From: Actinoplanes regularis
GTDB lineage: Bacteria > Actinomycetota > Actinomycetes > Mycobacteriales > Micromonosporaceae
Direction of reading: 5' to 3'
NCBI RefSeq assembly: GCF_900188005.1
Contig: NZ_FZNR01000001.1
Span: forward strand, 310,001 to 374,000
Length of the DNA stretch: 64,000 bases
The position numbers were made by a program, and so were the translations under genes. The notes below the pieces were generated by a model. That model was given only the letters and a program-made list of their open reading frames with translations, was not told the origin of the DNA and did no database searches. Of the stretch, positions 7,116 through 50,929 are shown piece by piece. Every line of letters begins with the position of its first letter. Position 1 is the stretch's first letter.

Positions 7116-7225
7116 CCCGCGTGTCTGCGACAGCCCATCAAGATCTTGTGCATAACTCTGTGGATGGACCCCAGGAGTTGTGGCCGGCATCCAGCACGAG
7201 CGTTTTGTCGTACCTCTGAGGCACC

Positions 7226-9013
7226 ATGATCTCCGTGTCTGACGAAACTGAGCCGGCCCGCAGCGGAAAACCGAAGATGAACCCGGATCTGGGACCCGTC
7301 GGCCGGGTTCTCGGCACTGCCGACGCCACCCCCCTGCAGTTCTGGACGGCCGTCGCTCCCGGCAGCTACCTGCAGCTCGACGACGTCGTGGTGACCCAGC
7401 GGGACCTGCCGGACCGCGAGCCGGTGACGATCGCCGGAGTGGTCACCCAGGTCCGGGCCCGGCACGAGGGCGCTCAGTTCGACTCGGACGTGTTCGCCAT
7501 CGCCGACGGCACGCTGCCGGCCATGGTCCAGGAGGCGGCCGAGATCACCACCACCCGCGTCGACCCGGAGCTCTACGTGCCGCCCGCCCCGGGCGCGATC
7601 GTCCACCGGGCCTCCGGCGAGACCCGGGACGCCGCCCTGCACTTCGACCGGATGGAGCGGCGGGTCCCGATGGGCACCGGCCGCGACGGCGTCCCGGTTT
7701 TCCTCAACGCGGACTTCCTCGACGGCACCCGGGGCGCGCACGTCTCGATCTCCGGCATCTCCGGGGTGGCCACCAAGACCAGCTTCGCGACGTTCCTGCT
7801 CTACTCGGTGTTCCGCTCCGGTCAGCTGGGCGCCGACGGGGCGAACGCCCGCGCGCTGATCTTCAACGTCAAGGGTGAGGACCTGCTCTTCCTGGACCAC
7901 CCGAACACCCGGCTGGACGACGCCACCCGGGCGTACTACAAGCTGCTCGACCTGCCCGACAGCCCGTTCACCGACGTCCGGGTGTACGCGCCGCCCCGGG
8001 CCGGCGACTCGACCGGCTCGCCCGACGTCAGCGGGCGGCTGACCGGCGTCGACTCGTTCTACTGGACGCTCGAGGAGTTCTGCTCGGCGAAGCTCCTGCC
8101 GTACGTGTTCGCCGACGCCGACGACGAGCGTCAGCAGTACACGATGGTGGTCCACTCGGTCACCGCCCACCTGCACCGGTACGCGGTCCCGGCCGAGGGC
8201 GGGATCAGCATCGACGGCCGCCGCATCGGCTCCTACGGCGACCTGGTCGACCACATCGTCGACCAGCTCACCGACGACGAGACCCGGTCGATCTGGGCGG
8301 GCAGCGCGATCAACATGGGCACGGTCAACGCGTTCGCGCGCCGTCTGATCGGCAGCAAGCGCGACCTGTCGAGGCTGATCCGGGGCGATCTGGCGCAGCG
8401 CCGCCCGCACCAGATCAAGACCGCGGACAGTGCCCAGGTCACCGTCGTCGACCTGCACAACCTGCCGGATCGCGCGCAGCGGTTCGTGGTCGGCGTGACA
8501 CTGAAGTCGGAGTTCGAGGAGAAGGAGAAGTCCGGTACCGGCCGCCCCCTGCTCTTCGTGGTCCTCGACGAGCTGAACAAGTACGCCCCGCGGGATGGCT
8601 CCTCCCCGATCAAGGAGGTGCTGCTGGACATCGCCGAGCGCGGCCGCTCGCTGGGCGTGATCCTGATCGGCGCGCAGCAGACCGCCAGTGAGGTGGAGCG
8701 GCGGATCGTCACCAACTCGGCGATCCGGGTGGTCGGCCGCCTCGACCCGGCCGAGGCGTCCCGGCCGGAGTACGGGTTCCTTCCCCCCGCCATGCGCCAG
8801 CGGGCGCTGCTGGCCCGCCCCGGCACGATGTTCGTCAACCAGCCGGACATCCCGGTCCCGCTCTGCGTCGAGTTCCCGTTCCCGGCCTGGGCCACCCGCA
8901 AGTCGGAGGCCGGTCCCCCGCCGGCCGACTCGCACCGGTCGATCGTGCAGTCCGCCGACCCGTTCGCCGTGATCGGCGGACGGGCCGGGGCGGATGACGA
9001 CATCCCCTTCTAG
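7226..9013 (+). CDS. herA: HerA-type DNA translocase/helicase
   Basis: This 595-residue protein has an N-terminal beta-barrel region (about 1-115, HAS-barrel-like) followed by a FtsK/HerA ATPase core. The P-loop is G177-I-S-G-V-A-T-K184-T and the Walker B segment is VVLDELNKYA with D448/E449. ILIGAQQTASEVERR follows as a sensor region. HerA hexamers pump DNA for the NurA nuclease during 5'-end resection in archaea. It is the first gene of a rightward set with sbcD, sbcC and nurA, which strongly supports that role here. The start ATG 7226 has only a weak GAGG 4 nt upstream; a GTG at 7235 is an alternative. Confidence 0.88.
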   Translation: MISVSDETEPARSGKPKMNPDLGPVGRVLGTADATPLQFWTAVAPGSYLQLDDVVVTQRDLPDREPVTIAGVVTQVRARHEGAQFDSDVFAIADGTLPAMVQEAAEITTTRVDPELYVPPAPGAIVHRASGETRDAALHFDRMERRVPMGTGRDGVPVFLNADFLDGTRGAHVSISGISGVATKTSFATFLLYSVFRSGQLGADGANARALIFNVKGEDLLFLDHPNTRLDDATRAYYKLLDLPDSPFTDVRVYAPPRAGDSTGSPDVSGRLTGVDSFYWTLEEFCSAKLLPYVFADADDERQQYTMVVHSVTAHLHRYAVPAEGGISIDGRRIGSYGDLVDHIVDQLTDDETRSIWAGSAINMGTVNAFARRLIGSKRDLSRLIRGDLAQRRPHQIKTADSAQVTVVDLHNLPDRAQRFVVGVTLKSEFEEKEKSGTGRPLLFVVLDELNKYAPRDGSSPIKEVLLDIAERGRSLGVILIGAQQTASEVERRIVTNSAIRVVGRLDPAEASRPEYGFLPPAMRQRALLARPGTMFVNQPDIPVPLCVEFPFPAWATRKSEAGPPPADSHRSIVQSADPFAVIGGRAGADDDIPF

Positions 9014-9022
9014 GTTGGAGAC

Positions 9023-9028
9023 TAGGGT
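9023..9028 (+). promoter_or_regulatory. Possible internal leaderless promoter for sbcD
   Basis: TAGGGT ends exactly 6 nt before the sbcD ATG, in the 21-bp gap after herA. This would let sbcD-sbcC-nurA be transcribed without herA. No convincing -35 box is seen, so read-through from herA remains possible. Confidence 0.4.
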
Positions 9029-9034
9029 TCAGCG

Positions 9035-10183
9035 ATGCGCATCCTGCACACCTCCGACTGGCACGTCGGCAAGGTTCTGAAGGGCCGGAACCGCTTCGAG
9101 GAGCACACCCGGGTGCTCGCCCAGGTGATCGAGATCGCCCAGGCGGAGCAGCCCGACCTGGTGATCGTCGCCGGCGACCTGTACGACACCGCGGCGCCCA
9201 CGGCCGAGTCGACCCGCCTGGTCACCCGGGCGCTCTCCGCGCTGCGCAAGACCGGCGCGCGGGTCGTGGCGATCGGTGGCAACCACGACAACGGCCAGGC
9301 CCTGGACGCGCTGCGCCCGTGGGCCGACGCCGCCGGCATCGAGCTGCGCGGCTCCTTCAACGCGCCGCAGGACCTGCTCATCGAGGGGACCACGGCCGGC
9401 GGCGAGCGCTGGCGGCTGGTCGCCCTGCCGTTCCTCTCCCAGCGGTACGCGATTCGCGCCGTCGAGATGTACGAGCTGACCGAGGCGGAGTCGAATCAGA
9501 CCTACGCCGATCTGATCGCCCGGTTGATCGGCAAGCTGACCGAGTCCTTCGCCGAGCCCGGCGCGGTCAACCTGATCACCTCGCACCTGACCATGGTCGG
9601 CGCGAGCACCGGCGGCGGCGAACGGGAAGCGCACACGATCATGGGGTACGCGGTGCCCGCCACCGTGTTCCCGCAGAACACCCACTATGTCGCCCTCGGT
9701 CACCTGCACCGCTCGCAGCGGGTGATCGGCCCCTGCCCGGTGCGGTACTGCGGAAGTCCGCTCGCGGTCGACTTCGGCGAGGAGGAGAACGTCAGCTCGG
9801 TGGCGATCGTCGACGTCGCCGTGGACAAGGCCGCTCAGGTCCGGGACGTGCCGGTGACCTCGGCGCTCACCCTGCGCACGGTCCGCGGCACCCTGGAACA
9901 GCTCGCCACGGTGAACCTTCCGGACGCCTGGCTGCGTGTCCTGGTGCGCGAGGCACCCCGCCCCGGCCTGCGCGAGGACGTGCAGGAGCTGCTGCCGAAC
10001 GCTCTGGAGGTCCGCATCGACCCCGACATGCTGCCCGACCGCGCCGGCGCCCGATCGGCGGAACGGGCCGGCCGCTCGCCGCGCGAGCTCTTCAGCGACT
10101 ACCTGGACAGTCGCGGCAACGCCGAGGAGGGCGTCCGCGAGCTCTTCGACCAGCTGTACGACGAGGTGAGCAGCAACCAATGA
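9035..10183 (+). CDS. sbcD: SbcD/Mre11-type DNA nuclease subunit
   Basis: SbcD is the Mre11-like phosphodiesterase of the SbcCD complex that trims and opens blocked DNA ends. All metal-binding motifs are present: SDWHVG (D8, H10), VAGDLYD (D48), GGNHDN (N83, H84), TSHLTM, and LGHLH near the end of the catalytic domain. The protein is 382 residues, and the C-terminal ~100 residues form the SbcC-contacting capping region. The stop overlaps the sbcC start (ATGA). It sits between herA and sbcC in an archaeal-like gene order. Confidence 0.94.
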   Translation: MRILHTSDWHVGKVLKGRNRFEEHTRVLAQVIEIAQAEQPDLVIVAGDLYDTAAPTAESTRLVTRALSALRKTGARVVAIGGNHDNGQALDALRPWADAAGIELRGSFNAPQDLLIEGTTAGGERWRLVALPFLSQRYAIRAVEMYELTEAESNQTYADLIARLIGKLTESFAEPGAVNLITSHLTMVGASTGGGEREAHTIMGYAVPATVFPQNTHYVALGHLHRSQRVIGPCPVRYCGSPLAVDFGEEENVSSVAIVDVAVDKAAQVRDVPVTSALTLRTVRGTLEQLATVNLPDAWLRVLVREAPRPGLREDVQELLPNALEVRIDPDMLPDRAGARSAERAGRSPRELFSDYLDSRGNAEEGVRELFDQLYDEVSSNQ

Positions 10184-12678
10184 GGCCCCTGCGGTTGGAC
10201 ATGTCCGGGTTCACGGTGTTCCGCGACCAGACCACCGTGGACTTCACCGACGCCGACTACTTCGCCCTGGTCGGCCCGACCGGCTCGGGCAAGTCGACGG
10301 TGCTGGACGCGATCTGTTTCGTGCTGTACGGCCAGGTCCCGCGCTGGGGCGGGGCTCGGGGCATCGGCAACGCCCTGGCCCCGTCGGCTGTCGAGGCCCG
10401 GGTCCGCCTGGTCTTCGAGTCGGCCGGCGACCGCTACGTCGCGACCCGGGTGGTCCGCCGGGACGGCCGGGGCAACGTCAAGACGTCCGGCGCCGGCCTG
10501 CAGCTGATGCCGCCCGGCTTCGACGTGACCAAGCTGGACACCGGCATGGACCTGGAGGACCTCGGCGAGGTGCTGGCCGGCGTCCCCGCCGAGATGGACG
10601 CCGCGGTGCAGGTCGCGGTCGGTCTGCCGTACGAGCAGTTCACCAGCTGCGTGGTGCTGCCGCAGGGCCAGTTCGCCGACTTCCTGCACGCCAAGCCGGC
10701 CACTCGGCAGCAGATCCTGATCAACCTGCTGGGCCTGCAGATGTACGAGCGGGTGCAGGTCAAGGCGGCGGAGAAGGGGAAGGCCGCGGACGCCAAGCTG
10801 TCCGTGGTCGATCAGTCGCTGGTCGCGCTGGAGGACGCCACCGACGAGGCGGTCGAGACGGCGGCTGCACGCCTGGCGCGGATGCGTGAGCTGACCGGCG
10901 CGGTGGAGGCCGCGGTGCCGGGGCTGCGGGCGGCCCGGGCGGCGGAGGAGGCCGCGCGGGGCACCCGGGACACCCTGGACGCCGAGTTGGCGCTGATCAC
11001 CTCGGTCCGTACACCGGACGGCCTGGCGGAGGCGACCGGCGCCATCACCGCTGCCCGGGACGCCGCCACCCGGGCGGCGGAGGCGGTGCACGAGGCCGAG
11101 GAGTTCGAGGAGAAGGTCCGCGGCGAGCTGGTCGCGGCCGGTGACGCCGGGTCGCTGCGGCTGGCCCTGGACCGGCACACCGAGCTGGAGCGCCTCACCG
11201 AGCAGGAGGGCTGGTTCGCCGGCAAGGTCTCGGTCGCCGAGGTGGAGTGCCGGGACGCGCGGACCTCGGCCGACCTGGCCGAGTCCGAGCACACCGGCGC
11301 CCAGCAGCTGCTGGAGCAGGCCCGGCAGGACTACCGCGACGCCCAGCAGCGGGACCGCGCGGCCGCCCTGCGCGGGCACCTGACCGCCGGCGACAACTGC
11401 CCGGTCTGCGAGCAGCAGGTCACGGTGGTGCCGGAGGTGCCGCGCGAATCGGCGGTCCGGCTCGCCGAGGAGACCGGCACCGCCGCCCGGGAGGCGGCCG
11501 AGCTGGCCACCGCCCGCTGGCGGCAGCGCGACGCGGTCGCCCGCGACCTGGAGAGCGATCTGGAGCGCAAGCGCGGGCAGTACGAGCACCACCTGTCCCG
11601 GCTCGCCGAGGTGCGCAAGGCCGTGCAAGGGCTGCCCGGGGTCGCGGCGATCGAGCAGCGGCTCGCCGAGTTCGGCCGGTTGCAGGGCCGGCTGGAGGAC
11701 GCGACCGCGGCGGTCCGCGCGGCACGTGACGGCCTGCGCTCGGCGCAGGCGGCGGTCCGGGCCGCGGAGGAGCAGCAGCGCACCGCGTGGCGCAGGTTCG
11801 ACGCGGTCCGCGACGGCCTGGCGCGCTTCGTGCCCCCGCCCGCCGACCGGGACGACCTGGCCCGCGCCTGGCAGGCCCTGGTCGAGTGGGCCCGCGCCGA
11901 GCACGACGCCCGCACGGTCCGGCGGGAGGAGGCGCAGGCCGCCGTGCTCGCCGCCCACGAGGCCACCGCCGGGGCGCACGCGGCGATCGTGGCGCTCTTC
12001 ACCGACGCCGGGGTGCAGCCGCCGGCCGCGTCACCGCAGGACGCCGAGGCCACCCTGATCCGGGCGGCCGCCGTCACCGCGGAGCGGGCCGAGGCCGCCT
12101 GGCAGCGCCTGGTCGAGCGCCGCGAGCAGGCCCGCGAACAGCAGGAGCAGCGGATGTCCCTGCTGCTCGAGAGCCGGGTCGCGAAATCCCTGGCCGGGCA
12201 CCTGCGGGCGAACAACTTCGAGCGCTGGTTGCTCGAGGAGGCGCTCGACATGCTGGTCGACGGCGCGTCCCGGATCCTGCGCGAGCTCACCGGCGGGCAG
12301 TACGAACTGGTGCACGACAAGGGCGAGTTCTTCGTCATCGACCATCACGACGCCGGGCTGCGACGGGGCGTGCGCACGCTCTCCGGCGGTGAGACGTTCC
12401 AGGCGTCGCTCGCTCTCGCCCTGGCGCTCTCCGAGCAGCTCGCCGGGATGAGCACCACCGCGGCCAGCCTGGAGTCGATCGTGCTGGACGAGGGTTTCGG
12501 CACCCTGGACGCGGCGACGCTCGACGTGGTCGCGGCCACCCTGGAGAACCTGGCCGCTCGTGGCGACCGGATGGTCGGGCTGGTCACCCACGTGCACGCG
12601 CTCGCCGAGCGGGTGCCGGTCCGGTTCGAGGTGCACAAGGACGCGCGGACCGCGTACGTCGAGAGGGTCGGCTTGTGA
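10180..12678 (+). CDS. sbcC: SbcC/Rad50-type SMC ATPase
   Basis: The 832-residue partner of SbcD has the full Rad50 architecture: Walker A GPTGSGKST (G32-S39), a long Ala/Glu/Arg-rich coiled coil, a zinc hook C407-P-V-C410 at the coil apex, the ABC signature LSGGET from about residue 734, and Walker B VLDEGFGTLD (D770, E771). It is shorter than E. coli SbcC (about 1,050), mainly in the coils. The ATG at 10180 overlaps the sbcD stop; longer in-frame readings upstream lie over sbcD and are shadows. The stop in turn overlaps the nurA start (GTGA). Confidence 0.94.
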   Translation: MRPLRLDMSGFTVFRDQTTVDFTDADYFALVGPTGSGKSTVLDAICFVLYGQVPRWGGARGIGNALAPSAVEARVRLVFESAGDRYVATRVVRRDGRGNVKTSGAGLQLMPPGFDVTKLDTGMDLEDLGEVLAGVPAEMDAAVQVAVGLPYEQFTSCVVLPQGQFADFLHAKPATRQQILINLLGLQMYERVQVKAAEKGKAADAKLSVVDQSLVALEDATDEAVETAAARLARMRELTGAVEAAVPGLRAARAAEEAARGTRDTLDAELALITSVRTPDGLAEATGAITAARDAATRAAEAVHEAEEFEEKVRGELVAAGDAGSLRLALDRHTELERLTEQEGWFAGKVSVAEVECRDARTSADLAESEHTGAQQLLEQARQDYRDAQQRDRAAALRGHLTAGDNCPVCEQQVTVVPEVPRESAVRLAEETGTAAREAAELATARWRQRDAVARDLESDLERKRGQYEHHLSRLAEVRKAVQGLPGVAAIEQRLAEFGRLQGRLEDATAAVRAARDGLRSAQAAVRAAEEQQRTAWRRFDAVRDGLARFVPPPADRDDLARAWQALVEWARAEHDARTVRREEAQAAVLAAHEATAGAHAAIVALFTDAGVQPPAASPQDAEATLIRAAAVTAERAEAAWQRLVERREQAREQQEQRMSLLLESRVAKSLAGHLRANNFERWLLEEALDMLVDGASRILRELTGGQYELVHDKGEFFVIDHHDAGLRRGVRTLSGGETFQASLALALALSEQLAGMSTTAASLESIVLDEGFGTLDAATLDVVAATLENLAARGDRMVGLVTHVHALAERVPVRFEVHKDARTAYVERVGL

Positions 12679-13643
12679 CACGGATGTTCGTCGACATGTG
12701 GGACCCGGCGTACGGGGCCAGTTTCGAGGGCGGGGAGGGCGAGGGTCCGGCCTCGCCCAGCAGCGCGCAGGTCGACACGGACGTGGAGGTGCCGGCCGCC
12801 GAGTGGGCGCCGATCGGGGTTCCGGCCGGCGCCTCCCCGCCGGACGTGGTGTTCCTGGTCGACGGGGTGCGGCGCAACGACGCCGGGTTGTGGACGGCCG
12901 AGGAGGACGGGACGTCGTACGCGGGGCTGGCCGCGTCGTACGCCGCCGGGGTGGTCCGGTGTGACCTGGCCCGGGGCGCCGCCGAAATGGTCGGCGCCCG
13001 GGTCGGCCGGGGCCTGTTCACCGCCAGCCCGTCGGCCGGCGATCTGCAGGCCGGAACGGTCCGCTACGAGCTTCACCGGATCAACGGTGGTGGTGAGGCG
13101 AGCAAGCTGCCGGCCGCGGTGCAGGGGCCGCTGACCGCGTTGGAGATCGAGATCTCCAGCGCCGCCCGGGACGGTGGCTCGGACGGCGCGGATTTGCTGA
13201 TCGTGGACGGCCCGTTGCGCAACCGGCGGCAGCTGCCGCGCACGATCGGTTACGTGAAGACCCAGCAGAAGCAGTATCTGCCGGCGGCGCTGACCACCGT
13301 GGTGACCGCGTTGCGGCCCGGGCAGCGGACCCCGGTCTTCCATCTCGGGACGATCTGGGGCGGCTGGTCGTGGTACCTGCGGCTGCCCGGGTCGACCGGG
13401 GCGCCGTGGTCCGGGATCGTCCGGGTGGAGTGCTCCCCCGACCTCACCGTGGAGCAGGCGATCGAGCTGGCCGAGCTCTCCGGGGCGACGCTGCCGAGGT
13501 TCGCGTCGGCGTCGTACAAGGATCCTCGCGCCCCGCAGAACCTGGTGCCGATCGCCGGGCTGGAGCGGCGGCTGCGCGGCATGCTCGGGGACGCCCGGGT
13601 GCTGCACCGGGCACTGGCGTTGGCCACCGCCCACTCACGCTGA
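12675..13643 (+). CDS. nurA: NurA-domain 5'-3' nuclease
   Basis: This 322-residue protein is a NurA-type nuclease. Two acidic strand-end motifs are visible, VFLVDGVRR (D63) and DLLIVDGPLRNRR (D178), followed by GYVKTQQKQYL and a C-terminal NLVPIAGLERRLR. NurA has an RNase H-like fold and degrades the 5' strand while HerA drives the DNA. The GTG start overlaps the sbcC stop as GTGA, so all of sbcD-sbcC-nurA are translationally coupled. The call is strengthened by herA three genes upstream. A hairpin lies just after the stop. Confidence 0.85.
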   Translation: MTRMFVDMWDPAYGASFEGGEGEGPASPSSAQVDTDVEVPAAEWAPIGVPAGASPPDVVFLVDGVRRNDAGLWTAEEDGTSYAGLAASYAAGVVRCDLARGAAEMVGARVGRGLFTASPSAGDLQAGTVRYELHRINGGGEASKLPAAVQGPLTALEIEISSAARDGGSDGADLLIVDGPLRNRRQLPRTIGYVKTQQKQYLPAALTTVVTALRPGQRTPVFHLGTIWGGWSWYLRLPGSTGAPWSGIVRVECSPDLTVEQAIELAELSGATLPRFASASYKDPRAPQNLVPIAGLERRLRGMLGDARVLHRALALATAHSR

Positions 13644-50872: not shown

Positions 50873-50929
50873 TTCTGTCGTACGGGGCGGATAGGCTGCG
50901 CCACGTCACCCCTGATCATGGAGTTGTCA

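Follow-up and report, generated by a model that had tools for sequence, protein, structure and literature searches.

Is the four-gene cluster herA-sbcD-sbcC-nurA of the soil bacterium Actinoplanes regularis a machine for the resection of DNA ends, and how did it come by a gene order known from archaea? The cluster lies in a stretch of 64,000 nt (contig NZ_FZNR01000001.1 of RefSeq assembly GCF_900188005.1, positions 310,001 to 374,000 of the forward strand), which is called the window in the following and is numbered from its first letter. HerA-NurA is usually regarded as archaeal or as peculiar to the Deinococcus-Thermus group, and its role is unclear; the archaeal operon has the order herA-mre11-rad50-nurA. 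We consider it quite probable that the cluster in the window is a DNA-damage-responsive end-resection operon. A coupled HerA-NurA-SbcCD resection machine, as proposed in a preliminary description made from the sequence of the window, is its best reading; the catalytic motifs are intact. No title found in a literature search had this operon in actinobacteria as its subject. The linkage in bacteria is already published for Oceanithermus profundus, where sbcD and sbcC are located downstream of the herA homologue hepA (PMC5448004).

The presence of all four genes in intact form is confirmed, with order, spacing and overlaps as first described (Table 1). They all lie on the forward strand; herA and sbcD are separated by 21 bp, and at the sbcD/sbcC and sbcC/nurA junctions the genes overlap by 4 bp each (ATGA and GTGA). 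The sbcC frame is nested in a longer mechanical open reading frame (ORF) at 9319–12678. Residue mapping confirmed K184/T185 of HerA, the CPVC zinc hook of SbcC, and D63 and D178 of NurA.

Table 1. Features of the herA-sbcD-sbcC-nurA region (positions in the window)
Feature	Position	Strand	Remarks
DnaA-box-like repeats, degenerate	7159–7187		TGTGGATGG at 7159–7167; TGTGGCCGG at 7179–7187 (second read by eye)
Promoter element	7206–7227	+	TGTCGTAC-N8-CACCAT, PafBC/RecA-NDp-like; -10 at 7222–7227
herA	7235–9013	+	hexameric translocase of the bacterial (Deinococcus) type; start at GTG favoured over ATG 7226
sbcD	9035–10183	+	Mre11-like nuclease; 382 aa; NCBIfam sbcd E 1.3e-52
sbcC	10180–12678	+	Rad50-like ATPase; 832 aa; CPVC hook at residues 407–410
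nurA	12675–13643	+	bacterial-type NurA nuclease; 322 aa; 7f6d NurA E 1e-19

Judged by its sequence, HerA is of the bacterial (Deinococcus) type and not of the archaeal type. It is similar over nearly its full length to HerA of Deinococcus radiodurans (drHerA; PDB 7f6d_B, E 6e-148, in two stretches, residues 24–321 and 363–562), with 57% identity over 481 aligned columns. Nine of 11 drHerA residues named in PMC9960219 are identical (K175, T176, K217, D220, D487, E488, R495, R513 and R552), which includes both the Walker A pair K175/T176 and the Walker B pair D487/E488, and the Walker A has the same SGVATKTS form. A Pfam scan of HerA gave no match, and the NCBIfam model for archaeal HerA (NF040819) did not reach its cut-off (10.6 of 970 bits). 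Likewise, the Pfam NurA model (PF09376) stayed below its cut-off on the NurA of the window (13.3 of 21 bits) and had no match anywhere in the genome. The protein is nevertheless 35% identical to drNurA over 275 aligned columns, and D53, K201 and R309 of drNurA correspond to D63, K195 and R285, which are invariant in 61 aligned sequences. E157 is also present, and W9 is nearly invariant (W8 of drNurA falls outside the alignment). The structure predicted from these 61 sequences (predicted local distance difference test 90.9, predicted template modelling score 0.89) has an RNase H-like fold of the bacterial NurA type. It matches Thermotoga NurA (1zup; Z 24.4, root mean square deviation 3.0 over 275) and Deinococcus NurA (7f6d; Z 24.2, 3.0 over 297), and more weakly Sulfolobus NurA (Z 14.0), the TdpAB nuclease subunit (13.7) and EndoV (11.2). 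The preliminary description had staked its reading on NurA aligning with its acidic residues matched and on HerA being an orthologue by profile search. The general Pfam and NCBIfam models miss both proteins, whereas the comparison with the Deinococcus complex, the predicted fold and the acidic residues indicate that both are homologues. The D. radiodurans NurA-HerA complex (PDB 7f6d, 7wrw, 7wrx), the clear relative, represents the same two families, with ATPase, pore and nuclease residues kept.

SbcD scores 179 bits against NCBIfam sbcd (cut-off 77.65) and is the only member of this family found in the genome. The best NCBIfam match of SbcC is sbcc (E 2.4e-75); its 254 bits are below the cut-off of 478.5 of that long model, while Pfam AAA_23 and SbcC_Walker_B are over theirs.

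What would switch on such an operon? In mycobacteria, the RecA-NDp promoter has the consensus TTGTCRGTG-N8-TANNNT. The TGTCGTAC upstream of herA and its spacing of 12 match the TGTCATAC element of recA in the same genome, but the -10 of herA is CACCAT. GTC[AG]nAC-N8-CAnnAT stands at the same place in all 36 sequences of the genus, window included, and in three of 33 other loci, namely at the same place in two Micromonosporaceae and once probably by chance. This also bears on the start of herA. The ATG at 7226 given before (7226–9013, 595 aa, + strand) overlaps the conserved -10 element, whereas the GTG at 7235 follows it by 7 nt, like the GTG of recA here; therefore, GTG 7235 is probably the true start.

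In the wider set of loci, TGTC-N12-TANNNT occurs upstream of the first cluster gene in 34 of 129 (18 of 64 herA-first and 16 of 65 nurA-first loci, two of the 67 nurA-first loci having no upstream DNA), all of them Actinomycetota by title or kinship. All other spacings from 6 to 20 together gave 0 and 5 matches, respectively. The element was found upstream of none of 64 internal nurA and none of 67 internal herA genes, and it precedes sbcD in 15 of 126 loci (L167, L175 and L197 excluded). At more than 300 nt from herA, sbcD carries a separate copy in 12 of 22 loci, as compared to three of 106 closer ones, and ten loci carry the element on both the herA-nurA part and sbcD; split clusters thus tend to keep the same control on both parts. 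Altogether 51 of 76 matches in 493 upstream regions are at spacing 12, with approximately 2 expected from the background, which outside these regions shows no peak at any spacing (41 at 12; 21–49 overall). The spacing test was run after the conserved block had been seen in alignments and the element was not prespecified; 12 is, however, the spacing of the mycobacterial consensus. This element upstream of the cluster genes, almost only at that spacing, appears to be new here. Two further candidates were rejected, the LexA box GAACnnnnGTTC and the strict form TTGTCRGTG, neither of which was present in 23 sequences upstream of herA.

In the genome as a whole (10.03 Mb in 76 contigs), TGTCRTAC-N8-TANNNT has 27 matches (L248–L274) and its reversed control none. 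The element precedes recA, radA, uvrB, dinB and polA, and seven of 16 downstream proteins scanned belong to repair or replication (RecA, RadA, UvrB, Pol IV, Pol I, a DEDD/GIY-YIG nuclease and an AlkZ-like glycosylase). At 17 of the 27 sites, the -10 is 6–8 nt upstream of a start codon. These sites likely outline a damage regulon. Non-repair domains seen downstream of the element are WGR, NADAR, YjbR, AraC-type and DinB_2, and a second site within the window, TGTCGTACGGGGCGGATAGGCT, is located at 50876–50897 (+).

PafBC activates the RecA-NDp motif (PMC6789036) and functions through sigma adaptation at a -26 motif (PMC11804915). The RecA-NDp motif extends beyond mycobacteria, and the regulon of M. 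smegmatis contains AdnAB and RecA (PMC8223512). The element in Actinoplanes shares with this regulon the spacing between TGTC and TANNNT and recA as a target; it differs by RTAC after TGTC, by HerA-NurA-SbcCD as target and by a regulator that is putative. Two genes are over the PafA cut-off (L275 and L276, on contigs C42 and C67), one of them about 3 kb from a WYL-WCX regulator; hence the genome may encode two PafA-like ligases.

The preliminary description had regarded the cluster as a second or alternative resection route and had suggested a comparison with adnAB. Two adjacent long frames of 1244 and 1226 aa in the genome both match PDDEXK_1, and the one that was scanned has UvrD and PDDEXK domains, suggesting an AdnAB-like pair; no copy of the element was found in the stretch upstream of it (L247). 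A PDDEXK_1 match in a frame of at least 900 aa exists in at least 51 of 66 HerA-positive genomes, by a hand count which does not tell AdnAB, AddAB and RecB apart and in which frame lengths vary between scans for one place (390 versus 891 in G283). No such long frame is among the matches listed for three HerA-positive genomes of one family (G219, G304 and G315; f45). A second route it is, then, in the genome studied here; an alternative one it may be in f45. Together with a cluster conserved in a culturable genus, a damage-type promoter and a single SbcD, the AdnAB-like pair makes the resection question directly testable.

We envisage the following course. After damage, a PafBC-type activator would drive a leaderless herA-sbcD-sbcC-nurA transcript. 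SbcCD would open or tether blocked ends, and a hexamer of HerA would thread the duplex and deliver it to a NurA dimer bound at the HAS barrels of HerA. Cutting of the 5' strand by NurA would leave a 3' tail for RecA, and the whole would work beside AdnAB. The sequences themselves show the gene content, the homologies, the conserved catalytic residues, the linkage across phyla and the promoter element. Threading and cutting are modelled on the biochemistry of D. radiodurans, while cooperation of SbcCD with HerA-NurA is suggested only by the linkage and the shared promoter elements.

Several points weigh against a damage-induced resection machine. In HerA, R154 and R96 of drHerA are replaced by D163 and E106, respectively; for the latter position, the mutant R96A had no defect (PMC9960219). 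Mutants of D. radiodurans and Thermus reportedly have modest or even improved damage resistance (PMC9960219), and a paper from 2026 argues for a possible antiviral function of archaeal HerA-NurA in place of resection (PMC12977600); the resection role as such has recently been doubted. As to the promoter, the link to PafBC rests on likeness to the mycobacterial consensus, only about a quarter of the first-gene upstream regions have the strict element, and the motif counts are not independent, with related genomes among those counted. The -10 of herA reads CACCAT instead of TANNNT. Across the genome, the CANNNT form gives a less clean signal, with 22 matches versus one in the control, too noisy to be accepted as a general regulon marker. 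Finally, nine of the 16 scanned proteins downstream of the genomic sites, five with other domains and four with none, are not recognised repair proteins.

The rival that survives best holds that SbcCD and HerA-NurA are co-regulated damage genes acting at separate steps or on separate substrates, SbcCD on hairpins or crosslinks and HerA-NurA at forks or in segregation. It shares the damage response with the resection operon and differs in the joint machine, so that their odds overlap; we regard it as rather unlikely, though a serious contender. The four-protein complex is so far only inferred, and 17 of 154 loci, many from Deinococcota, have nurA-herA with no sbcD or sbcC in the stretch examined, while nine have herA alone. 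A link to replication is hinted at by the DnaA-box-like repeats. The DnaA box has the consensus TGTGGAYAA, and at least one box with no more than one mismatch is present upstream of herA in 31 of 36 sequences of the genus, 59 boxes in total as compared to 1.9 on average over 100 shuffles, none of which gave more than 6. Up to three boxes stand there in one orientation (sequences including L216–L243, L129–L134 and L205); boxes precede herA also in the Dactylosporangium and Phytohabitans loci examined, and the window itself has only a copy with two mismatches. Against separate roles speaks that the linkage is kept in loci of Actinomycetota, Cyanobacteriota, Deinococcota, Chloroflexota and Gemmatimonadota, and that in the ten loci mentioned above the same promoter element is on both parts.

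Less likely still, and in our view improbable, is anti-phage defence, in which HerA-NurA and SbcCD would degrade invading linear DNA like Sir2-HerA or DUF4297-HerA. The antiviral role proposed for archaeal HerA-NurA (PMC12977600) would fit. So would a copy on a Streptomyces plasmid (L070) adjoining TIGR02678, TIGR02680 and DUF2397 genes, which we take to be Wadjet-like, and a Chloroflexota plasmid copy near TIR and HEPN genes. PADLOC matches are weak for HerA (mad8 31.6 bits, HerA 24.5) and moderate for SbcC (mad3 92.2), whereas NurA has none. Among ten flanking ORFs no defence family was found (four with a Pfam family, six without any Pfam match). In addition, the promoter resembles that of recA and other repair genes, nurA occurs in 36 of 36 genomes searched of the genus, and the operon holds the only sbcD of the genome; because of these three points repair is favoured over defence. 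Where the preliminary description held that the sequence does not show which of the two applies, the evidence now points to repair, although short of proof.

How, then, did the cluster come by its gene order? Archaeal herA, mre11, rad50 and nurA are linked and co-transcribed (PMC2288612). The order in the window is the same and the machine probably similar, while the sequence models differ as described and Sulfolobus NurA is the poorer structural match (Z 14.0 versus 24 for bacterial NurA). Thus, the term archaeal-style, used at first, fits the gene order and not the proteins. A survey of the order, as had been proposed, covered 154 loci from several bacterial phyla, after ten had been dropped as duplicates or fragments together with any HerA under 450 aa; HerA is identical within two pairs of loci (L093/L197 and L140/L158). 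herA-sbcD-sbcC-nurA (order A) was found in 64 loci, two of them with an extra weak SbcC match in front, and nurA-herA-sbcD-sbcC (order B) in 49. In 18 loci nurA-herA is followed by nothing or only by sbcD in the stretch examined, and 23 are incomplete. All 113 complete loci have one of the two orders and no third one was seen. In some order-A loci several kb separate herA from sbcD.

In a HerA tree of 96 out of 155 sequences (near-copies, fragments, incomplete loci and three viral rows excluded), order A forms one clade of 48 rows (Shimodaira-Hasegawa-like approximate likelihood ratio test 99) inside order B (44 rows, a label that also covers nurA-herA rows without sbcDC), and all five outgroup rows start with nurA-herA. 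The SbcD tree (87 rows) agrees, with order A as one clade (support 100). Judged by the HerA gene tree, the most parsimonious course is thus a single move of nurA from first to last place. Two results stand against such a simple single change. The NurA tree (89 rows), alone among the three, needs two changes of order; a tree with one clade scores better and is not rejected (approximately unbiased test, p 0.861). Furthermore, the family f23 has both orders (4 loci and 5 loci); therefore, order tracks the HerA gene tree and not the family, and gene transfer or loss likely contributed as well. The nesting of order A within order B, seen for HerA and SbcD alike, makes convergence the probable source of the likeness to archaea; the order would have arisen inside bacteria from nurA-herA-sbcD-sbcC, assuming that archaea, which were not part of the trees, branch outside. 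This suggests that the same order has apparently arisen separately in bacteria and archaea. Inheritance of the order from the archaeal operon, which the identical order and the archaeal origin suggested for the Deinococcus-Thermus genes (PMC12977600, PMC5448004) would favour, is very improbable in view of the archaeal HerA and Pfam NurA models below cut-off and the nested order-A clades of HerA and SbcD, even if trees without archaea leave room for an older transfer.

Known bacterial clusters fit into this scheme. In D. radiodurans, nurA and herA form their own two-gene operon (PMC9960219), whereas in the window sbcDC lies between them and the whole follows a damage-type promoter of actinobacterial kind. 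In O. profundus, sbcD-sbcC follow hepA as they follow herA here; in Thermus, nurA precedes hepA (PMC5448004), whereas it is last in the window. The D. radiodurans pair is not known to have sbcDC adjoining it. One may combine all this into a distinct bacterial resection machine that occurs in several phyla, with nurA moved once to the operon end in the ancestor of a large HerA clade, and in actinobacteria a PafBC-induced, LexA-independent second resector beside AdnAB that in Actinoplanes is also tied to DnaA, via the boxes near its promoter. We put this combination forward tentatively and at somewhat less than even chances, rated slightly lower for the two changes in the NurA tree and the two orders in f23.

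The phylum was sampled with 296 genomes. A close HerA (150 bits or more) is encoded in 66 of them, all but two of which (64) also have a NurA match. Besides the 36 genomes of the genus, in which the herA start region is present as well, nurA was found in three of 24 others of the order. The full gene order was scanned in few members of the genus (the window, L129–L134 and L205); in L132, nurA was missed by the profile scan and found by the separate nurA search. Named relatives, for which the best 80 of at least 580 matches were confirmed, include Acidimicrobiia, Nitriliruptoria, Glycomycetaceae, Streptosporangiaceae, Micromonosporaceae, Cyanobacteriota, Deinococcota, Chloroflexota and Gemmatimonadota. 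Lone loci from metagenome-assembled genomes (MAGs) titled Pseudomonadota or Bacteroidota may be mislabelled. Five MAG loci titled Gemmatimonadota or, in single cases, BD2-11 clade and Gammaproteobacteria (L165, L170, L176, L181 and L182) cluster inside the order-A HerA clade, a grouping which suggests transfer or mislabelled bins.

Some copies are found in a different setting. The Streptomyces plasmid copy is also near an ImmA/IrrE peptidase gene. A viral scan gave only two loci (26–28%) and a phage collection two records (under 26%). On the viral contigs L073, L074 and L075, the stretch examined contains nurA-herA and neither sbcD nor sbcC; in one of them, from Marinitoga camini virus 1, the pair is located near a LexA-like gene. 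One genome (G203) has two HerA-type clusters, one close and one distant (L107 and L120), and both have the order nurA-herA-sbcD-sbcC.

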